Made by a program: the position numbers and the translations under genes. A stretch of DNA of 47,194 bases, from positions 1 to 47,194 of the forward strand of contig NZ_JAATOX010000019.1 in NCBI RefSeq assembly GCF_011806385.1, given 5' to 3'. The stretch is from Phaeobacter sp. HF9A (GTDB lineage: Bacteria; Pseudomonadota; Alphaproteobacteria; Rhodobacterales; Rhodobacteraceae). Below the pieces are notes generated by a model. That model did not search any database. It was not told the DNA's origin and was given only the letters and a program-made list of their open reading frames with translations. Shown here piece by piece: positions 9,168 through 46,236 of this stretch (positions are counted from its first letter, which is position 1; each line of letters begins with the position of its first letter).

Positions 9168-10262
9168 ATGGAAAAGATGCCTAAATGGGCCGATGTGGTG
9201 CTGATCCCGGTGATCAGCCTGCTTCTGGCCGCGATTATCTCCGCCCTTGTGATCCTCTTCATCGGCGAAAGCCCGACCGAGGCGCTCTCTCTCATGGTGA
9301 AAGGCGCGCTGGGGTCCACCTATGGCTGGGGCTATACGCTCTATTATGCCACCAACTTCCTGTTCACCGGGCTTGCGGTGGCGGTGGCCGCCCATGCCGG
9401 GCTCTTCAACATCGGCGGCGAGGGGCAGGCGATGATCGGCGGCCTCGGGCTGGCGATCGTCTGCCTTTATATCCCCTTCCCGCATTGGTCGATCGCCTTG
9501 CTGGTCGCCGGTCTGGGGGCTGGGCTCTTTGGTGCGGCCTGGGCGGCGATCCCGGCCTATCTGCAAGCCAAACGCGGCAGCCATATCGTGATCACCACCA
9601 TCATGTTCAACTTCATCGCTGCGGCGGTTCTGAACTACATGCTGGTCAATGCGCTGAAACCCAAGGGCGCGATGGATCCCTCCACCGCGAAATTCCAGGA
9701 GGCGGCGCAGCTGCCCTCGCTGCACGAGATCCTGGCGCCGATCGGCATCGAGTTCTCCAAATCCGCCCCCGCCAATGTGACGCTCTTTGTCGGTCTTGCC
9801 GCCTGTGTGGTGGTCTGGGGCCTGATCTGGCACACGCCGCTGGGCCACGAGATCCGCGCCCTGGGCAAATCCGAGCGCGGCGCGGTTTATGCGGGCATTT
9901 CGCCGGTGCGCACCATCATGGTGACCATGCTGATTTCCGGCGCGCTCTGCGGCTTGATGGCGACCAATAACGTCATGGGCGAGGCCGAACGGCTGGTGCT
10001 CAACGCCACCGAGGGCGCGGGCTTTATCGGCATCGCGGTGGCCCTGATGGGCCGCAACCACCCCTTTGGCGTCTTCCTTGCGGCGATCCTTTTTGGCTTT
10101 CTTTATCAGGGCGGGGCGGAGCTGGCGCTTTGGACCAATATCCCCTCTGAACTGATCGTGGTCATTCAGGCCCTGGTGATCCTGTTCACCGGTGCGCTGG
10201 ACAACATGGTGCGCATGCCGATCGAGAAGATCTTCATTGCCCTGCGGAAGGAGAACGCCTGA
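9168..10262 (+). CDS. ABC transporter permease 1 (BMP/nucleoside type)
   Basis: 364-residue inner-membrane permease with about eight to nine hydrophobic segments, the first at residues 9-33. The LFNIGGEGQAMIGG motif and the cytoplasmic EIRALGKSERGAVYAGI loop are characteristic of the branched-chain amino acid/nucleoside permease superfamily (BPD_transp_2). It starts immediately after the ATPase stop and its own stop overlaps the next ATG by one base (TGATG), so translation is probably coupled. Confidence 0.92.
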   Translation: MEKMPKWADVVLIPVISLLLAAIISALVILFIGESPTEALSLMVKGALGSTYGWGYTLYYATNFLFTGLAVAVAAHAGLFNIGGEGQAMIGGLGLAIVCLYIPFPHWSIALLVAGLGAGLFGAAWAAIPAYLQAKRGSHIVITTIMFNFIAAAVLNYMLVNALKPKGAMDPSTAKFQEAAQLPSLHEILAPIGIEFSKSAPANVTLFVGLAACVVVWGLIWHTPLGHEIRALGKSERGAVYAGISPVRTIMVTMLISGALCGLMATNNVMGEAERLVLNATEGAGFIGIAVALMGRNHPFGVFLAAILFGFLYQGGAELALWTNIPSELIVVIQALVILFTGALDNMVRMPIEKIFIALRKENA

Positions 10263-29528: not shown

Positions 29529-31334
29529 TCAGAAGGTCCGCGCTTTCGGGGCGATCTTCGCCAGCGAGATGCCGCCTTCTTCTTCGGTCGAGAGCGGATC
29601 AACGATCACCGGACGATAGCTGAGCTCGACCGAGGCACCCTCGACGCGGCTGATGGTATGCACCCGCCAGTTCTCGTCGTCCCGCGCGGCGTAATCCTCA
29701 TGCGCATGCGCACCGCGGCTTTCCTTGCGCGCCTCGGCACCGTGGATGGTGGCCAATGCGTTGGGCATCAGGTTGGTCAGCTCCAGCGTTTCCATCAGAT
29801 CGGAGTTCCAGACCAGCGAGCGGTCCGTCACATGCAGATCGTCCAGCTTGCCCGCGATGGAGGTCATCTTCTCGACGCCCTCTTTCAGGGTCTTGTCGGT
29901 GCGGAACACCGCCGCATCCGCCTGCATGGTGCGCTGCATTTCCAGCCGCAGCTCTGCCGTGGGCGTGCCGCCCTTGGCGTTGCGCAGGGCATCAAAGCGG
30001 TCAAACGCCTTGTCGATAGACGCCTGGTTCAGCACCGGATTGGGCGCGTTCGGATCCACGATCTCGCCCGCGCGGATCGAGGCCGCACGACCAAAGACCA
30101 CCAGGTCGATGAGCGAGTTGGAGCCCAGACGGTTGGCCCCATGCACCGAGGCACAGCCCGCCTCGCCCGCGGCCATCAGGCCCGGCACGATCGCGGTCGG
30201 ATTCTCGGCCGTCGGGTTCAGCACCTCGCCCCAATAGTTGGTCGGGATGCCGCCCATGTTGTAATGCACCGTCGGCAGAACCGGGATCGGCTCCTTGGTG
30301 ACATCCACCCCGGCAAAGATCTTGGCGCTTTCGGAAATCCCCGGCAGCCGCTCGGCCAATGCCTCTGCGGGCAGGTGGGAGAGGTTCAGGTGGATGTGGT
30401 CGCCATGTTCGCCAACACCACGCCCTTCGCGGATCTCCATCGTCATCGAACGAGAGACATAGTCGCGCGGCGCGAGGTCCTTATACTGCGGCGCGTAACG
30501 CTCCATGAAGCGCTCGCCCTCGGAGTTGGTCAGATAGCCGCCCTCGCCGCGCGCGCCTTCGGTGATCAGACAGCCGGAGCCATAGATTCCGGTGGGGTGG
30601 AATTGCACGAACTCCATGTCCTGCAAGGCCAGACCGGCACGTGCCACCATGCCGCCGCCGTCGCCGGTGCAGGTATGGGCAGAGGTCGCCGAGAAATAGG
30701 CCCGGCCATAGCCGCCGGTCGCCAGCACCACCATCTTGGCGTTGAAAACATGCATGGTGCCATCGTCGAGCTTCCAGCACACCACACCCTGACATTGCCC
30801 ATCCTCGGACATGATCAGGTCGATGGCGAAATACTCGATGTAGAACTCGGCGTTATGCTTCAGCGACTGACCATAAAGCGTGTGCAGAATGGCGTGGCCG
30901 GTGCGGTCGGCGGCGGCACAGGTGCGCTGCACCGGCGGGCCTTCGCCAAATTCGGTGGTATGACCGCCAAAGGGGCGCTGGTAGATCTTGCCTTCTTCGG
31001 TCCGCGAAAACGGCACGCCGTAGTGTTCCAGCTCGTAAACCGCCTTGGGGGCTTCGCGCGCGAGATATTCCATCGCGTCGGTGTCGCCCAGCCAGTCAGA
31101 GCCCTTGACGGTGTCATACATGTGCCACTGCCAGTTGTCCGGGCCCATGTTGGAAAGAGAGGCCGCGATGCCGCCCTGCGCCGCAACGGTGTGCGAACGG
31201 GTCGGAAAGACCTTGGTCACACAGGCGGTGCGCAGCCCTTGTTCTGCCATGCCCAATGTCGCGCGCAGACCCGCGCCACCGGCACCGACAACCACCACGT
31301 CATAGTCGTGGGTTTCATATTCATATGCTGTCAT
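29529..31334 (-). CDS. sdhA: Succinate dehydrogenase flavoprotein subunit
   Basis: 601-residue catalytic subunit oxidising succinate to fumarate. The FAD dinucleotide-binding loop is [13 protein letters not shown] (residues 13-25), and the histidine for covalent FAD is H48 in [10 protein letters not shown]. The substrate and active-site region includes [11 protein letters not shown] and the C-terminal [13 protein letters not shown]. The length is normal for SdhA. It is the third gene of the cluster, 24 bp after sdhD, and the flavinylation factor SdhE is not visible nearby. Confidence 0.98.
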
Positions 31335-31358: not shown

Positions 31359-31730
31359 TCAGAGGGCGAGTTTGACGAGGGCAAAAAGCCCAACGGCGAT
31401 CATGGTGTAGGAAAAGGCCGCAACCGCGACCAGCATCAGCTTTTCCGCCAGCCCATGCATGTAGTCTTCCACCGCCTCGCGCACTTCGCGCATCATATGC
31501 AGGATGCCCACCACCAGCGTCAGCCCGGTGATGATCGCCGGACAGGGGCGGGCGTAATAGGCCAGAACCTCTTCGTAGCTGCCGCCAAGGCCGAGCCCAA
31601 AGGTGATCACAAAAAGCGGCACCAGGATGACCAGCAGCATCGAGGTGACCATCGCCTGCCAATGTTCATGGGTGCCGCCCCGGCTGGCGCCCAGCCCTTC
31701 GGCGCGTTTGCGGTCTGTCAGATAATTCAT
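31359..31730 (-). CDS. sdhD: Succinate dehydrogenase membrane anchor subunit
   Basis: 123-residue membrane anchor with three hydrophobic segments (about residues 28-50, 60-80 and 97-121). After an N-terminal GASRGGTHEHWQ stretch, it contains LHMMREVREAVEDYMHG, the SdhD-type H...EDY region by the quinone/heme site. It lies 11 bp after sdhC and 24 bp before sdhA. Confidence 0.92.
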   Translation of the reverse strand: MNYLTDRKRAEGLGASRGGTHEHWQAMVTSMLLVILVPLFVITFGLGLGGSYEEVLAYYARPCPAIITGLTLVVGILHMMREVREAVEDYMHGLAEKLMLVAVAAFSYTMIAVGLFALVKLAL

Positions 31731-31741
31731 CGCGCTGCCCC

Positions 31742-32125
31742 TTATACGATCAAAGCGGCCAGAACGGTCAGGACCGTCGCGCCAACAAACATGCCCATGC
31801 CGAGCTTCTCGGCAACCTCGACCTCAAGGCAATAGCCGAAGTCCCAGATCACGTGCCGCAGACGTCCCAGCATGTGATAGAAGATCGCCCAGGTCGCCCC
31901 CAGCATAACAAGATCGCCAAACCAGCTGCGCAGCAGCCCGTCCACAACGGCGAAATAGGGTTCCGAGGTCGCCGCAGCCAGCAGCCACCACACCACCAAG
32001 AGCGCCGCTCCCAGGGTCGCGATGCCGGTTATCCGCACCATGATAGATGACGCCGAGGTCATCTGAGGACGATAAATGGACAAATGCGGCGAAAGCGGGC
32101 GATTGCCCCGATTGACATCGGCCAT
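31742..32125 (-). CDS. sdhC: Succinate dehydrogenase cytochrome b556 subunit
   Basis: 127-residue anchor with three membrane segments. The RPLSPHLSIYRPQMTSASSI motif (residues 9-28) is the SdhC signature, and H84 in IFYHMLGRLRH is the expected heme b ligand. First gene of the operon; AAAGGAG lies five bases before the ATG. Two GTGATCAC palindromes, 116-144 bp upstream, are probably operator sites shared with the suc operon. Confidence 0.95.
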   Translation of the reverse strand: MADVNRGNRPLSPHLSIYRPQMTSASSIMVRITGIATLGAALLVVWWLLAAATSEPYFAVVDGLLRSWFGDLVMLGATWAIFYHMLGRLRHVIWDFGYCLEVEVAEKLGMGMFVGATVLTVLAALIV

Positions 32126-32238
32126 GTTGGCTCCTTTCCGGTTAGCTGACGACGTTCTAGCCTATTTTTGCGCTCTGTCACGCAACCGAGTGGTAAAAAT
32201 CATCTGATTTTGTGGTTGTTTGGTCGTTTTTCTCACAC

Positions 32239-32270
32239 TTGTGATCACAACTCGGAATGCCGTGATCACA
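32239..32270 (-). promoter_or_regulatory. Paired GTGATCAC operator upstream of sdhCDAB
   Basis: TTGTGATCACAA (32239-32250) and CGTGATCACA (32261-32270) share the core GTGATCAC at 32241-32248 and 32262-32269. Centres are 21 bp apart, two helical turns. The proximal core is 116 bp upstream of the sdhC ATG. The same pair, same spacing and nearly the same distance is found before sucC. Read in the gene direction, both have an AT-rich flank (ATTT) before the distal core and AA after the proximal core. Confidence 0.75.
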
Positions 32271-32461: not shown

Positions 32462-33508
32462 CTAGAGCGGCATCACCGCCCAGTAATCGAGATCCAGCAA
32501 GACCTCTGGCAGATATTTCCCGCCCTCATCCCGCAGCTGGAACGGCGCACCGCCCGACGTGGCCACCAACCGCAAGCGGATCGCACCAACGCCCGGCGCG
32601 GCGGTCTCGGCCTTGTCCAGCACCTCTGACCAGGCGCGGATCGTTGTGCCTGCCAGACAGGGGTTGGCATGCGCGCCACCATTCAGCCCGACGATCATCT
32701 GCGCATTGGCCAGCCCGTTGAACGACAGCGCCCGCGCCATGGAGATCACATGACCGCCATAGATCAGGCGGCTGCCGTCGGGGCGCGCGGTGGTATCGAA
32801 ATGCACCTTGGCGGTGTTCTGCCAGAGTCGGGTGGCCAGCATATGCTCGGCCTCCTCGACAGTGACCCCATCCACATGGTCGATCCGCTCGCCCACCGCG
32901 TAATCGCCCCAGCGATGCGGCTCTCCGGCCAGGGTGAAATCATAGCCGGTGAAGTCGAGCCCCGCCGGCAGCAGCAGATCTTCCGCTGCCAGAACCGGCA
33001 CCAGATCCGGCACGTGGGTCTCCGGTGCATCGGCTGACGGGTTGCCCTTGCGCACCATCACCCATCGCACGTAGTCGAGCACCAGCTCGTCGCGCTGGTT
33101 AAAGCCACGGCTGCGCACCCAGACCACCCCGGTCTTGCCGTTGGAGTTCTGCTTGAGCCCGATCACCTCGCTCTCCGCGCGCAGGCTGTCGCCGGGATAG
33201 ACCGGCTGATGCCAGCGCCCTTCGGCATAGCCAAGATTGGCCACAGCATTCAGCGAGATATCCGGCACCGTCTTGCCAAAGACCAGATGGAAGGCCGCCA
33301 GATCATCCAGCGGCGCCGCCGGCAGGCCAGAGGCGCGGGCAAATTCATCCGAGGAATAAAGCGCATGCCGCGCCGGATAGAGCGCGTGATAGAGCGCGCG
33401 CTCGCCCCCCGACACGGTGCGCGGCACCGCATGCCGGATCACCTCGCCCAGCCTGTAGTCCTCAAAGAACCGGCCCGGGTTTGTCTTGCCTGCGGTGCTT
33501 TTTGCCAT
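32462..33508 (-). CDS. mch: Mesaconyl-C1-CoA hydratase (MaoC family)
   Basis: 348-residue double-hotdog hydratase that converts mesaconyl-C1-CoA to beta-methylmalyl-CoA in the ethylmalonyl-CoA pathway. The protein follows the Rhodobacter enzyme from the start (KTNPGRFFEDYRLGE) through GKTVPDISLNAVANLGYAEG, VYPGDSL and SRGFNQRDELVLDYVRWVM. The second hotdog half begins near residue 190 (YAVGERIDHVDGVTVEEAEH). It is the last gene of the mcl2-nnrU-DUF1737-mch run, two bases behind the DUF1737 stop. Confidence 0.95.
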   Translation of the reverse strand: MAKSTAGKTNPGRFFEDYRLGEVIRHAVPRTVSGGERALYHALYPARHALYSSDEFARASGLPAAPLDDLAAFHLVFGKTVPDISLNAVANLGYAEGRWHQPVYPGDSLRAESEVIGLKQNSNGKTGVVWVRSRGFNQRDELVLDYVRWVMVRKGNPSADAPETHVPDLVPVLAAEDLLLPAGLDFTGYDFTLAGEPHRWGDYAVGERIDHVDGVTVEEAEHMLATRLWQNTAKVHFDTTARPDGSRLIYGGHVISMARALSFNGLANAQMIVGLNGGAHANPCLAGTTIRAWSEVLDKAETAAPGVGAIRLRLVATSGGAPFQLRDEGGKYLPEVLLDLDYWAVMPL

Positions 33509-34306: not shown

Positions 34307-35161
34307 TTAGCCGGTGAGCTGGGCAATTGCATCCGCTTTTGCGAGGATTTCACGTGCGGTCGCCACATGCAGGTTTTCGACGATCTTGCCATCCACCACC
34401 GCGACCCCCTGCCCCTCGGCCTCGGCGGCCTCAAAGGCGGCGATCTGGCGGCCGGCCAGGTCGATTTCCTCGGGCGAGGGCGCAAAGGCCGCATTGGCGA
34501 TGTCGATCTGCGCCGGGTGGATCAGGGTCTTGCCGTCAAACCCCATTTCGCGGCCCTGCGTGCATTCCGCCAGCAGCCCGTCCTCATCCTTAAAGGCGTT
34601 ATAAACCCCATCGACGATCACCTTCCCCTCGGCCCTGGCCGCCAGCACGCAGAGGCCCAGACCGCTCATCAGGGGCAGCCGGTCCGGGCGGAACCGGGTC
34701 TGCATCTCCTTGGCGAGATCATTGGTGCCCATCACCATCCCCTGTAGCCTGGGGTGCGCGGCAATCGCGGCGGCATTCAGCATGCCACGCGGGGTCTCCA
34801 TCATCGCCCAGAGCGCCAGATCGCCGGTGATCGCTGCCAGCGCGTCCAGGTCTTCGGGCGAAGACACCTTGGGCAGCAACACGGCGTCACATCCCATGTT
34901 CGCCGCAGCCTCCGCGTCCGCGCGCCCCCAGGCCGTGTCGAGCCCGTTGATGCGCACAATCTTCAACCTTGCGCCATAGCCCCCCGCCGAGAGCGCCTCG
35001 GCCAGGGTGTCCCTTGCGCTGGCCTTCTCCCCGGCGGTGACCGCGTCTTCGAGATCAAAGATGATCGCATCCACGGCAAGGCCCCGCGCCTTCTCCAGCG
35101 CCCGGGGCCGGGATCCCGGAATATAAAGCACCGAGCGGTAAGGGCGGGAGCGCGGGTCCAT
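34307..35161 (-). CDS. mcl2: (3S)-malyl-CoA thioesterase (CitE/HpcH-like)
   Basis: 284-residue HpcH/HpaI-type TIM barrel. The sequence RSVLYIPGSRPRALEKARGL, AIIFDLEDAV (Mg-binding acids), METPRGMLNAAAIAAHPRL, MVMGTNDLAKEM and FDGKTLIHPAQIDIANAAF follows the Rhodobacter Mcl2 thioesterase, which hydrolyses (3S)-malyl-CoA to malate. It is shorter than the lyase Mcl1 (about 318 residues). It could still have some malyl-CoA/beta-methylmalyl-CoA lyase activity. GGAGG stands seven bases before the ATG. First gene of the run ending in mch. Confidence 0.88.
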   Translation of the reverse strand: MDPRSRPYRSVLYIPGSRPRALEKARGLAVDAIIFDLEDAVTAGEKASARDTLAEALSAGGYGARLKIVRINGLDTAWGRADAEAAANMGCDAVLLPKVSSPEDLDALAAITGDLALWAMMETPRGMLNAAAIAAHPRLQGMVMGTNDLAKEMQTRFRPDRLPLMSGLGLCVLAARAEGKVIVDGVYNAFKDEDGLLAECTQGREMGFDGKTLIHPAQIDIANAAFAPSPEEIDLAGRQIAAFEAAEAEGQGVAVVDGKIVENLHVATAREILAKADAIAQLTG

Positions 35162-38304: not shown

Positions 38305-38652
38305 ACCTATGCGTCCTTGGTCATATTGCGGGCGCGAGGGACTTTATATTCACCCCAAGCGAGATCAACCCAAAAACGAGCAACGCGAGCGGAGCACACC
38401 CCTATGGTGTTCGCCGCACCCTGTCATCGGGACGTTTCGACAGGCGGTGCCAATGCGTGGAGGTCACACGAATCACTTGCTGGCATGGCTCCTGGCACCG
38501 CTTTCATTTAGTGATCACACCCCGTGACGCTGTGATCACAAATTCGCAAAAACTCCGCCATTTGGCGCAAGAAGGGCAGAAAACCCTTTAACCTCTTGTT
38601 TGAACACGGCGTACTAAGAAGGGAAAATTGCAGCCAGACGGGACAGTTTCTC
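38305..38652. other. Divergent region between glycosyltransferase and sucC
   Basis: 348 bp without a gene. It holds the paired GTGATCAC operator (38511-38540) and an AT-rich stretch (38590-38640) that probably contains the suc promoter. I cannot place -35 and -10 elements with confidence. Confidence 0.45.
38511..38540 (+). promoter_or_regulatory. Paired GTGATCAC operator upstream of the suc operon
   Basis: GTGATCACAC (38511-38520) and TGTGATCACA (38531-38540) have cores at 38511-38518 and 38532-38539, centres 21 bp apart. The proximal core ends 113 bp before the sucC ATG. This copies the geometry seen before sdhC. Confidence 0.75.
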
Positions 38653-39846
<1,194 letters not shown>

Positions 39847-40243: not shown

Positions 40244-41131
40244 ATGGCAGTCCTCATCGACGAAAACACCAAAGTCATCTGTCAGGGCCTGACCGGCTCG
40301 CAGGGCACTTTCCACTCTGAACAGGCCATCGCCTATGGCACCAAGATGGTCGGCGGCGTCACACCCGGCAAGGGCGGTCAGACGCATCTTGACCTGCCGG
40401 TGTTCAACTCCGTGCATGAAGCCAAGCACGTGACCGAGGCAAATGCCTCCGTGATCTATGTGCCGCCGCCCTTCGCCGCGGATTCCATCCTTGAGGCGAT
40501 CGACGCCGAGATGGAGCTGATCGTCTGCATCACCGAGGGTATCCCGGTTCTGGACATGATGAAGGTCCAGCGCGCGCTGGAAGGGTCCGCCTCGCGTCTC
40601 ATCGGCCCCAACTGCCCCGGCGTGATCACCCCCGACGCCTGCAAGATCGGCATTATGCCCGGTCACATTCACAAGCGCGGGAGCGTGGGTGTTGTGAGCC
40701 GTTCCGGCACCCTAACTTATGAAGCTGTGAAACAGACGTCAGATATCGGCCTTGGCCAATCCACCGCAGTCGGCATCGGCGGCGACCCGATCAAGGGCAC
40801 CGAGCATATCGACATTCTGGACATGTTCCTCGATGACCCGGAGACCCAGTCCATCATCATGATCGGTGAGATCGGTGGCTCTGCCGAGGAAGAGGCCGCA
40901 GAATTCATCGCCGAGCAGAAGAAAAAAGGCCGCTGGAAGCCGATCGCCGGTTTCATCGCAGGCCGCACCGCCCCTCCGGGCCGTCGCATGGGCCACGCGG
41001 GCGCGATTGTCGCCGGTGGCAAAGGTGGCGCCGAGGACAAGATCGAAGCCATGCGCTCTGCCGGGATCATCGTGGCAGACAGCCCCGCGACCCTGGGCGA
41101 AGCGGTTCAGGAAGCGATCGCCAAGGGCTGA
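40244..41131 (+). CDS. sucD: Succinyl-CoA synthetase alpha subunit
   Basis: 295-residue subunit carrying the phosphorylated histidine. The CoA-binding region starts [30 protein letters not shown] lies at about 118-130, and the catalytic H251 is in [21 protein letters not shown] ribosome-binding site precedes the ATG. It is separated from sucC by a lipoprotein gene and a hairpin, although the two subunits are needed in equal amounts. Confidence 0.97.
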
Positions 41132-41220: not shown

Positions 41221-41765
41221 ATGACTTTTTTTCAGAACGCAAAAACCTGTTTCAAGAAGTCGTTTCATTTCAAAGGGCGCGCGACCAAATCTGAGTTTTG
41301 GAAATTCTTCTGGTTCGTGGTTCTGGGCCTCATACTCTGCGTTATCGTGAATTCGATATTATTCGGCCCGTCTACCACCTACACCTTTCAGGCAGATGCA
41401 AATGGTCAGCTTATAATTCTGGGATCTTTGGAACGATATTTGTATTGGTCTGTGCGCTTCCCATGATCAGCGTCGGTTGGCGCCGCATGCATGACGTAGG
41501 CAAACCCGGTTATTTTCCTTATCTCACCATTTTTGCCTGGATCTTAATCGTGGCTGGCGTGCTGATCGCCTACAACGGTTTCGGCGCGACAATCGAGGAC
41601 ATTCGCGACACCGGCCAAGCAAAGGTCCAGATAAATCCAGCACTCGGTCTTGCGATCTTAGTTGCTTTCATTCTCGTCCTGATTACGAACATCCGCTGGC
41701 TCGTGTCACCTTCACTATCCGGCGCCAACAAATACGGTCCCAACCCGAATGAGGTTCCACTATGA
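41221..41765 (+). pseudogene. DUF805 membrane protein, frameshifted
   Basis: The first part (41221 on) reads a DUF805 N-terminus: FFQNAKTCFKKSFHFKGR, then ATKSEFWKFFWFVV, and stops at 41466. The rest of the family (IFGTIFVLVCALP, VGWRRMHDVGKPGYFP, GANKYGPNP) is in the frame one base back and runs to 41765. Adding one G to the GGG at 41421-41423 joins LIILG to IFGTIF exactly, so a single-base deletion or sequencing error is likely. The intact frame would end in ATGA overlap with sucA. Base composition is AT-richer than its neighbours. DUF805 proteins are small inner-membrane proteins of unknown function. Confidence 0.8.
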
Positions 41766-44713
41766 CCGACCAAAGCCCCAACGACATCTTCCATGCCTCC
41801 TCCTTTATGCAGGGGCATAATGCCGAATATCTGGAGCAGCTTTACGCGCGATACGCCAGCGACCCGAATGCGGTTGATGCCGCCTGGGCAGAGTTCTTTC
41901 GCCAGATGGGCGACGCGGAGCTCGACGTAAAGAAAGAGGCGCAGGGCCCGAGCTGGGCGCGCAGCGACTGGCCGCCGGCCCCCAGTGATGACCTGACCGC
42001 CGCGCTGACCGGCGAATGGCCCGCCCCGGTGGAGACCAAGGCCGCCGGCAAGAAGATCGCGGCAAAGGCCAAGGAAAAGGGCGTTGAGATCTCGGACGAG
42101 CAAGTGCAGCGCGCGGTGCTTGATTCCGTGCGCGCCCTGATGCTGATCCGGGCCTATCGGATCCGGGGGCATCTGGCCGCCGATCTGGACCCGCTTGGCA
42201 TGCGCGCCGCAACCGCGCATCCGGAGCTGGACCCGAAGACCTATGGCTTTGGCGATGCGGATATGGATCGGCCGATCTTTATCGACAATGTGCTGGGGCT
42301 TCAGGTGGCCTCCATGCGGCAGATCGTGGAGATCGTGAAACGCACCTATTGCGGCACCTTTGCGCTGCAATACATGCATATTTCCGACCCCGAGCAGAGC
42401 GCCTGGCTGAAAGAGCGGATCGAAGGCTACGACAAGGAAATCACCTTTACCCGCGAGGGGCGCAAGGCGATCCTGAACAAGATGGTCGAGGCCGAGGGCT
42501 TCGAGAAATTCCTGCATGTGAAATACATGGGCACCAAGCGTTTTGGTCTGGATGGCGGCGAGAGCCTCATTCCCGCGATGGAGCAGATCATCAAGCGCGG
42601 CGGCAATCTCGGCGTCAAGGAGATCGTCATCGGCATGCCGCACCGGGGCCGCCTGTCGGTTCTGGCCAATGTGATGCAGAAGCCCTATCGCGCGATCTTC
42701 AACGAATTCCAGGGCGGCAGCTTCAAGCCCGACGATGTCGATGGCTCGGGCGATGTGAAATATCACCTTGGCGCCTCCTCGGACCGCGAATTTGACGGCA
42801 ACAAGGTGCACCTCAGCCTGACCGCCAACCCCTCGCATCTGGAAGCGGTGAACCCGGTTGTGCTGGGCAAGGTGCGCGCCAAGCAGGACCAGCTGGCCGA
42901 CACCGACCGCACCGCCGTGATGCCGATCCTGCTGCACGGCGATGCCGCCTTTGCCGGTCAGGGCGTGGTTGCGGAATGTTTCGCGCTCTCGGGTCTGCGC
43001 GGTCACCGCGCCGGTGGCACCATGCATATCGTTGTGAACAACCAGATCGGCTTCACCACCGCGCCGCATTTCTCGCGCTCCTCGCCCTATCCCACCGACA
43101 ACGCGCTGGTGGTCGAGGCTCCGATCTTCCACGTCAACGGCGACGACCCCGAAGCGGTGGTACATGCCGCCAAGGTCGCAACCGAGTTCCGTCAGAAGTT
43201 CCACAAGGATGTGGTCATCGACATCTTCTGCTATCGCCGGTTTGGTCACAACGAAGGCGACGAGCCGATGTTCACCAACCCGTTGATGTACAAGAAGATC
43301 AAGGGCCACAAGACCACGCTCAGCCTCTATACCGAACGTCTGGTCAAGGATGGTCTGATCCCCGAGGGCGAGATCGAGGACATGAAGGCCGCATTCCAGG
43401 CGCATCTCAATGAGGAATTCGAGGCCGGGAAAGTCTATAAACCCAACAAGGCCGACTGGCTGGACGGGCGCTGGTCGCATCTGGATCGCAAGGACGAGGA
43501 TTACCAGCGCGGCGAAACCGCCATCAAACCGGAAACGCTGGAAGAAATCGGTCGCGGGCTGACCAGCCTGCCCGAGGGCTATCCGGTGCATAAGACCGTC
43601 GGGCGTTTCCTTGCGGCGCGCAAGGCGATGTTTGACAGCGGCGAGGGTTTTGACTGGGCCACCGGCGAGGCGATGGCCTTTGGCTCGCTGCTCACCGAGG
43701 GGTACCCGGTGCGGCTGGCCGGTCAGGACAGCACCCGCGGCACCTTCAGCCAACGCCATTCCGGCATTGTGAGCCAGGAAACCGAAGACCGCTACTACCC
43801 GCTCAACAATATCCGCTCGGGACAGGCGCAATATGAGGTCATCGACTCGGCGCTGTCGGAATATGCGGTGCTGGGCTTTGAATATGGCTACTCGCTGGCG
43901 GAACCCAACGCGCTGACCCTCTGGGAAGCGCAGTTCGGCGATTTTGCCAATGGCGCGCAGATCATGTTCGACCAGTTCATCTCCTCCGGCGAGAGCAAAT
44001 GGCTGCGGATGTCCGGTCTAGTCTGCCTCTTGCCGCATGGGTTTGAGGGCCAGGGCCCGGAGCACTCCTCGGCACGGCTGGAGCGGTTCTTGCAGATGTG
44101 TGGTCAGGACAACTGGAACGTGGCCAATTGCACCACGCCGGCGAACTATTTCCACATCCTGCGCCGTCAGCTGCACCGCACCTTCCGCAAACCGCTGATC
44201 ATGATGACGCCGAAATCGCTGCTGCGCCACAAGCTGGCGGTGAGCAAGGCGGAGGAATTCACCAGCGGGTCGAGCTTCCACCGGGTGCTCTGGGATGATG
44301 CCCAACATGGCAATTCCGACACCCAGCTGGTCAGCGATGACAAGATCAAGCGCGTCGTCATGTGTTCCGGCAAGGTCTATTACGACCTCCTGGAGGAACG
44401 CGACGCCCGCGGCATTGATGATGTCTACCTGATGCGGATCGAGCAGTTCTACCCCTTCCCGGCGATCTCCTTGGTCAAGGAGCTGGAACGCTTCAAGGAC
44501 GCGGATATGGTCTGGTGTCAGGAAGAGCCCAAGAACCAGGGGGCCTGGAGCTTTATCGAGCCGAATATCGAATGGGTCCTCACCCGGATCAACGCCAAAC
44601 ACACCCGCCCGACCTATGTTGGTCGCGCCACCTCGGCTTCGCCCGCCACGGGTCTGGCCAGCCAACACAAAGCCCAACAAGCTGCGCTCGTTGACGAAGC
44701 GCTGAGCATCTGA
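41762..44713 (+). CDS. sucA: 2-oxoglutarate dehydrogenase E1 component
   Basis: 983-residue thiamine-diphosphate enzyme, the decarboxylating E1 of the 2-oxoglutarate dehydrogenase complex. The N-terminal segment ([19 protein letters not shown]) resembles the E2-binding region. [14 protein letters not shown] is typical of SucA. The ThDP-binding motif [14 protein letters not shown] starts near residue 396, and the C-terminal domain includes [19 protein letters not shown] and [11 protein letters not shown]. The ATG overlaps the DUF805 stop (ATGA), suggesting coupling to the upstream gene when that is intact. Confidence 0.98.
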
Positions 44714-44727
44714 GGAAGATTGAGATC

Positions 44728-46236
44728 ATGACAACCGAAGTGCGCGTGCCCACCCTGGGCGAATCCGTGACCGAAGCGACCGTCGCCACCTGGTTCAAGA
44801 AACCCGGCGACACCGTGGCGCAGGACGAGATGCTCTGCGAGCTGGAGACCGACAAGGTAACGGTCGAAGTCCCCGCCCCCGCCGCCGGGGTGCTGGCCGA
44901 AATCGTCGCCAATGAAGGCGACACCGTTGGCGTCGATGCCCTGCTGGCCAGCATCAGCGAGGCCGGAGAAGCCACTACCCCCGCCGCAGACGCCCCGAAA
45001 GCCGCGGCCGAGGCCCCTGCCGCCGCGAGCGACAGCGGTGCCAGCACCGACGTGATGGTGCCGACCCTTGGCGAAAGCGTCACCGAAGCCAGCGTCTCCA
45101 CCTGGTTCAAGAAGGTCGGCGATACCGTCGCGCAGGACGAAATGCTCTGCGAGCTGGAGACCGACAAGGTCTCCGTCGAGGTTCCCGCCCCCGCTGCCGG
45201 TGTGCTGACCGAGATCATCGCGCCGGAAGGCACCACGGTCGATGCCTCGGCCAAGCTCGGGGTGATCTCCGGCGGCGAAGGTGCTTCGGCGGCGGCGGCC
45301 CCCTCTGCTGCGCCTGCCGCAGCCGCTGCACCGGCCGCCGCGGGCAAGGACGTCGCCAATGCGCCATCGGCGGAAAAAGCGATGGCCGAGGCCGGTCTGA
45401 GCGCGGATCAGGGCAGCGGCCGCGATGGTCGCATCATGAAAGAAGACGTGGCCGCAGCCGTCGCAGCCGCCAAAGCGGCCCCCGCACCGGCCCCGGCCGC
45501 CGCGCCGGTACGTGGTCCGGTCTCTGCCGATGATGCCTCGCGCGAGGAACGGGTGAAGATGACCCGCCTGCGCCAGACCATCGCCAAGCGCCTGAAGGAC
45601 AGTCAGAACACCGCCGCCATGCTGACCACCTACAACGAGGTCGACATGACCGAGGTGATGGCGCTGCGCAACGAGTACAAAGACCTGTTCCTGAAGAAAC
45701 ACGGCGTCAAACTCGGCTTCATGTCCTTCTTCACCAAGGCCTGCGTGCACGCCCTGCGCGAAGTGCCCGAGGTCAACGCAGAAATCGACGGCACCGATAT
45801 CGTCTACAAGAACTTCGTGCACATGGGCATCGCCGCCGGCACGCCGACGGGTCTTGTGGTGCCGGTGATCCGCGACGCCGACGCGATGTCATTCGCCGAT
45901 ATCGAGAAGGCGATTGCCGAGAAAGGCGCGCGCGCCCGTGACGGCAAACTGTCGATGGCGGAAATGCAGGGCGGCACCTTCACCATCTCCAACGGTGGTG
46001 TCTATGGCTCGCTGATGTCCTCGCCGATCCTGAACCCGCCGCAATCGGGTATCCTCGGCATGCACAAGATCCAGGACCGTCCGATGGCGATCAACGGCAA
46101 GGTGGAAATCCGCCCGATGATGTATCTGGCGCTGTCTTATGACCACCGCATCGTCGACGGCAAAGGTGCCGTGACCTTCCTCGTGCGCGTCAAGGAAGCG
46201 CTGGAAGACCCGCGTCGTCTGCTGATGGATCTGTAA
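44728..46236 (+). CDS. sucB: Dihydrolipoyl succinyltransferase (E2) with two lipoyl domains
   Basis: 502-residue E2 core. Two tandem lipoyl domains cover about residues 1-78 and 105-183, each with ELETDK (lipoyl lysines K43 and K147). They are joined and followed by Ala/Pro-rich linkers. The peripheral subunit-binding domain is near 211-241 ([13 protein letters not shown]...[11 protein letters not shown]), and the catalytic domain ends with [15 protein letters not shown]. Most SucB proteins have one lipoyl domain and about 400 residues; here the duplicates are also strongly similar at DNA level. It lies 14 bp after sucA. No E3 (lpd) is seen before the window ends. Confidence 0.97.

Follow-up and report, generated by a model that had tools for sequence, protein, structure and literature searches.

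The stretch of DNA analysed here, referred to as the window, comprises 47,194 nucleotides from Phaeobacter sp. HF9A (contig NZ_JAATOX010000019.1) and carries two paired operators of one design, one upstream of the succinate dehydrogenase gene sdhC and one upstream of the succinate-CoA ligase gene sucC. The operator pair is real and strongly conserved, and its best explanation is that the AkgR regulon extends to a further member of the family Rhodobacteraceae. It is very probable, in our view, that the two pairs are tandem operators of an AkgR ortholog, an activator of the GntR family and FCD subfamily, that would activate sdhC and sucC and repress its own gene, akgR. The pairs are a solid and largely expected case of a known control circuit, and not a new kind of system. 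The analysis names the likely regulator and a fixed geometry that makes the mechanism of activation easy to probe.

Paired operators in the window

38511-38539, + strand: operator ahead of sucC, a pair of GTGATCAC cores with centres 21 bp apart
32241-32269, - strand: operator ahead of sdhC, a pair of GTGATCAC cores with centres 21 bp apart

Both operators read exactly GTGATCAC-N13-GTGATCAC. The exact cores are located at 38511-38518 and 38532-38539 (+ strand) before sucC, and at 32241-32248 and 32262-32269 (- strand) before sdhC. A preliminary description of this DNA had proposed a shared core with 21-bp spacing before both genes, at 114 bp from the sucC start codon and 116 bp from that of sdhC. 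The exact cores were found at both genes and the coordinates agree, the distance from the final core base to the ATG being 114 bp for sucC (ATG at 38653) and 116 bp for sdhC (ATG at 32125). The same description had the flanks in agreement. This holds for the AA that follows the proximal core in both operators; ATTT is likewise found ahead of both distal cores, but at sucC one extra A separates it from the core, so that the match is off by one base. The two operons, described as unlinked, 6 kb apart and on opposite strands, are indeed divergent and approximately 6.2 kb apart, and are unlinked only in the sense of being separate transcription units. There is no exact GTGATCAC between the two pairs, and mdh, which starts at approximately 36.2 kb, lacks an exact core, as had been stated.

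Outside the pairs the window holds three exact cores, at 9588, 31603 and 40622, all of them single. Matches to the whole pair with at most three mismatches number three vs 0.19 expected, and none of 100 shuffled sequences reached three; two of them are the sdhC and sucC pairs, and the third, at 31603, has three mismatches. The consensus of CRP/FNR-type sites is TGTGA-N6-TCACA. The operator does not follow it, as its palindrome halves abut without a 6-bp centre, and a CRP-type site was rejected on this reading.

Rarity of the pair in the genome

The genome is a 4.27-Mb draft in 262 contigs, 94.8% complete, and approximately 5% of it may be missing. The N13 pair occurs in this draft at two exact places, at five places with one mismatch and at four with two. 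Allowing any gap of 4-34 bases between the cores gave no third exact pair in the 4.27 Mb, only the same two places. For comparison, the number of exact 21-bp pairs expected per 4.27 Mb is 0.0008 under a first-order Markov model from the window, and 0.017 at the window's own rate of unpaired cores. The proposed regulon covering the tricarboxylic acid cycle at large, with gltA, acn, icd or lpd as further members, found no support, since the genome-wide scan for the exact pair gave sdhC and sucC only; a wider regulon defined by the exact pair was rejected. The exact-site criterion leaves room for weaker or single sites elsewhere in the genome.

Six exact copies of the 10-mer TGTGATCACA were found in the genome: one each in the sdhC pair, the sucC pair and the region before akgR, and three inside long open reading frames (C29:3448, C191:26880 and C191:29757, judged to be coding by frame length and by inspection). 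This points to a very small exact target set, comprising suc, sdh and akgR. Places within two mismatches of TTGTGATCACAA number 106 genome-wide vs 26 for the reversed pattern. Four relatives (G008, G020, G030 and G035) have exact 10-mers away from sdhC, sucC and akgR, and at least six of the nine inspected lie inside long reading frames. Two copies look intergenic, one each in G008 (L170) and G020 (L173), and by eye no recurrence of the stray copies at one gene was seen among these four genomes.

Conservation of the pair

We compared 61 genomes from 44 genera, 37 of them from the family of the window and 24 from other families. The exact 21-bp pair is present in 31 of the 61 genomes and 15 of the 44 genera. 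All 31 are among the 37 family genomes; none of the 24 genomes of other families has it. The 400 bp upstream of each gene were also read directly, with spacings of 14-32 bp permitted; G014 was unreadable for both genes and G036 for sdhC. An exact pair precedes sucC in 32 of the 36 readable family genomes and sdhC in 28 of 35. The spacing is 21 bp in 53 of these 60 exact pairs and 20 bp in the other seven. Among relatives the spacer sequence is mostly free. The outer flank ahead of the distal core is rich in T and the one beyond the proximal core rich in A; in the latter, all 32 distinct sucC regions have A as the first and third base. Two species closely related to R. sphaeroides, Cereibacter ovatus and C. 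flavus, have both pairs.

Additional cores occur in a few loci. In Pseudotabrizicola sediminis (L198) and a Gemmobacter nectariphilus bin (L200), three exact cores in 21-bp steps precede sucC, a row consistent with a phased array of dimers. Pseudorhodobacter antarcticus (L242:12124) has a third exact core upstream of its sdhC pair, 86 bp from the nearest one, start to start.

The candidate regulator

We take RSP_0981, a GntR regulator of Rhodobacter (Cereibacter) sphaeroides, to be AkgR, as reportedly set out in Imam 2015 (mBio). Excerpts of PMC4344238 predict that RSP_0981 controls the genes for succinyl-CoA synthetase (sucCD), succinate dehydrogenase (sdh) and 2-oxoglutarate dehydrogenase. 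According to excerpts of PMC6365646, AkgR is a GntR-family regulator described as an activator, and GTGATCAC is among its reported binding sites in R. sphaeroides. Two of these features recur in the window, the operator GTGATCAC upstream of the genes and the set of predicted targets, sucCD, sucAB and sdh.

The Phaeobacter genome gave 31 matches to the GntR domain, and 30 of the loci were retrieved. Among these 30, only that of P0004 has an exact TGTGATCACA at most 450 bp upstream of the helix-turn-helix match. P0004, encoded on contig C6, is a protein of 220 aa with an N-terminal GntR winged helix (PF00392, 49.8 bits) and a C-terminal FCD domain (PF07729, 63.1 bits), both above the Pfam cut-off, which places it in the FCD subfamily of the GntR family. 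Its best solved relative is 4p9f, the regulator mcbR. P0004 is a candidate AkgR ortholog by its domains, the site at its own promoter and its co-occurrence with the pairs. An AkgR ortholog is most likely the regulator of both pairs, and P0004 is the protein predicted to bind them.

The nearest GntR paralog (L061, contig C182), 39% identical to P0004, has TTTGATCAAA 159 bases upstream of its helix-turn-helix match. This related palindrome may be the operator of the C182 paralog itself.

Co-occurrence of regulator and pair

Orthologs of P0004, at 64% identity or more, are encoded in 32 of the 61 genomes, all of them in the family. Matches with an expectation value of at most 1e-20 extend to 37 genomes; the remaining five have only homologs of 30-37% identity, and two of these (G050 and G051) are outside the family. 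Among genomes with an ortholog, all 31 readable ones have an exact sucC pair and 28 of 31 an exact sdhC pair; among family genomes without, the counts are one of five for sucC and none of four for sdhC (Fisher p 8e-5 for sucC and 7e-4 for sdhC, with shared ancestry ignored).

Similar observations were made in a named collection, taking the best 80 loci, which are 77-88% identical to the query and all include akgR; the R. sphaeroides genome is not among them. Their titles name genera of the Rhodobacteraceae or relatives, or bins at family, order or phylum level. An exact pair precedes sucC in all 11 loci with at least 250 bp upstream, 13 other sucC loci having been left out because their upstream DNA was too short or their gene start incomplete, and precedes sdhC in four of five. 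One regulator for the oxidation of succinyl-CoA and succinate, which the preliminary description proposed without naming it, is well supported: the pairs are conserved together across much of the family and with one GntR regulator, and RSP_0981 is predicted to act on the same operons in the excerpted text of PMC4344238.

Promoter geometry at sdhC and sucC

32154-32181, - strand: predicted sdhC promoter, GTGACA, 16 bp, TAGAAC, beginning 59 bases past the end of the proximal core
38587-38615, + strand: tentatively predicted sucC promoter, with TTTAAC beginning 47 bases past the end of the proximal core and a weak -10

These promoters were predicted from sequence. For sdhC we compared 29 regions, the 28 with an exact pair and that of G026. 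A downstream -35-like GTGAC is present in 27 of the 29. Its start lies 57-60 bases past the proximal core in 25 of the 27, and in nine of the 11 outside the window's own genus. The two exceptions have offsets of 68 (G032) and 36 (G035), near one and two helical turns away. A hexamer starting with TA follows 16 bp after GTGACN in 23 of the 27. The distance from GTGAC to the ATG varies from 56 to 121. Because the offset from core to GTGAC is fixed and that from GTGAC to the ATG is variable, the position of the sdhC pair follows the promoter-like element rather than the start of the gene. We suggest that the fixed offset is as for an upstream activator.

At sucC, a TTT starts at an offset of 47 bases from the core in 24 of 32 regions, including 17 of 17 in the own genus. 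Relative to the predicted start sites, the centre of the proximal core would lie at approximately -98 in sdhC and -87 in sucC, about one helical turn apart.

The promoter of akgR

Of the 32 orthologs, 30 were fetched, and 25 of these have an exact core upstream of akgR. In all but two of the 25 regions a TTGAY element is followed at 18 bases by the start of the core; at this distance the last bases of the core would belong to the -10, which reads TCACAT in most. A core over the predicted akgR -10 is the arrangement of a repressor, and suggests self-repression. The named collection was scanned from 250 bp upstream to 30 bp into the match; among its 79 loci with upstream DNA, 28 have an exact core, eight have one mismatch at best and 43 have neither.

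In many akgR orthologs (L071-L100) the predicted start site is within a few bases of the ATG, which suggests that the akgR transcript is nearly leaderless.

Model and alternative explanations

In brief, we propose that two AkgR dimers would bind the two 8-bp palindromes of each pair, two helical turns apart and on the same face of the DNA, perhaps cooperatively. Bound AkgR would sit approximately 85-120 bp ahead of the start sites predicted for sdhC and sucC, and would activate both promoters, probably through contact with RNA polymerase. At the single site over its own predicted -10, AkgR probably represses akgR. The sites, their conservation and spacing, their fixed offset to the promoter-like element at sdhC and their co-occurrence with the regulator come directly from the sequences, and binding by P0004, activation, start sites, cooperativity and self-repression are inferred from them. 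The proposed roles of tandem spacing, promoter register and self-repression go beyond what the excerpts of PMC6365646 and PMC4344238 describe. More tentatively, and here the odds are slightly on the other side, the pair may be a rigid two-dimer platform held in whole-turn register to the promoter throughout the family, combined with single-site self-repression on a nearly leaderless akgR in part of it. If true, the circuit would be a homeostatic one dedicated to the steps from 2-oxoglutarate to fumarate alone, not to the whole tricarboxylic acid cycle.

Several observations weigh against the AkgR model or narrow its reach. Two of the 29 sdhC regions (G005 and G018) have no exact GTGAC, and the sucC promoter is weakly defined, with TTT at the given offset in seven of 15 regions outside the own genus. 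The sdhC pair is not intact in G024 and G029, which have the ortholog, and has one mismatch in G026, while single exact cores precede sdhC in R. capsulatus (L273, in the stretch read) and in Szabonella (L222). In G036, a fragmented 2.3-Mb assembly that is 91% complete, the sucC pair is retained although the homolog there is just 36% identical. The family genomes that lack both ortholog and pair may just be one or more outlying branches. P0004 is a putative ortholog of RSP_0981 by family, motif and targets, and in Cereibacter ovatus and C. flavus akgR lies outside the stretches fetched around sdh. The exact akgR site, present in 28 of the 79 loci, occurs in none of the 11 titled Gemmobacter, Cereibacter or Tabrizicola. 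It is missing from much of the family, and self-repression can therefore not be general.

The alternative that survives best, unlikely as it is, holds that AkgR binds the pairs and represses sdhC and sucC, for example by looping or bending the DNA, until released by a metabolite. Many FCD regulators of the GntR family are repressors that a metabolite releases, and the akgR site does overlap its own predicted promoter. The pairs, unlike that site, lie well upstream of the predicted promoters, in sdhC at a fixed offset, and AkgR is described as an activator in the excerpts of PMC6365646.

Somewhat less probable still is a different regulator on the pair, such as a second GntR protein (the C182 paralog) or a protein of another family. 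The genome has many GntR paralogs, as the number of domain matches indicates, and the sucC pair of G036 occurs in a genome with a distant homolog only. In addition, a Pseudomonas simiae GntR protein has been proposed to bind the same palindrome (excerpts of PMC6365646), so that the motif is not confined to a single ortholog group. Against this, the exact site is found upstream of P0004 only, the C182 paralog having TTTGATCAAA instead, and the pair follows the P0004 ortholog across genomes. Chance pairing of common GATC-centred palindromes, for which one could cite the excess of cores with at most one mismatch in the window (41 vs 17.5 expected), is practically out of the question and was rejected as refuted by conservation, given two exact pairs in 4.27 Mb against the far smaller numbers expected, and an exact 21-bp pair in 15 genera with differing spacer sequences.

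Comparison with known systems

CceR of R. sphaeroides is a LacI-family regulator with a different operator. It likewise controls central carbon metabolism (excerpts of PMC4419725) and, going by a title in reference lists, was described alongside AkgR. The excerpts of PMC4419725, PMC11323563 and PMC7471390 name AkgR in their reference lists only. The AkgR regulon of R. sphaeroides (RSP_0981) is the closest likeness, with a GntR regulator, the GTGATCAC motif and sucCD, 2-oxoglutarate dehydrogenase and sdh as targets (excerpts of PMC4344238 and PMC6365646). It differs in gene order, as the linkage of akgR to sdh and suc changes between genera; akgR is located approximately 4-7 kb from sdhA in Fertoeibacter, Szabonella, two Pseudorhodobacter and one Gemmobacter. 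PS417_07240, the regulator of a deoxyribonate cluster in Pseudomonas simiae, is also GntR-like, with the same palindrome and a site near its own start codon, but it is 32% identical to AkgR, belongs to the cluster of another pathway, and its binding is only proposed (all from excerpts of PMC6365646).

Genes around the two operators

38653-39846, + strand: sucC, succinate-CoA ligase beta subunit (NCBIfam NF001913, above cut-off)
40244-41131, + strand: sucD, succinate-CoA ligase alpha subunit (NCBIfam NF004230, above cut-off)
41762-44713, + strand: sucA, 2-oxoglutarate dehydrogenase E1 (NCBIfam NF006914, above cut-off)
44728-46236, + strand: sucB, dihydrolipoyllysine succinyltransferase E2 (NCBIfam NF004309, above cut-off)
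31742-32125, - strand: sdhC, succinate dehydrogenase cytochrome b subunit (NCBIfam TIGR02970, above cut-off)
29529-31334, - strand: sdhA, succinate dehydrogenase flavoprotein (NCBIfam TIGR01816, above cut-off)

That sucCDAB form one transcript is an assumption. Between the sdh and suc operons the window also encodes a mesaconyl-CoA hydratase-like gene (32462-33508, Pfam MC_hydratase) and a malyl-CoA lyase-like gene (34307-35161, assigned by eye). Matches to both adjoin sdhC in several relatives. In G008 (L170:1531) a single exact site, TTTGTGATCACAT, is located between mdh and the mcl-like gene, approximately 0.6 kb from the mdh start.
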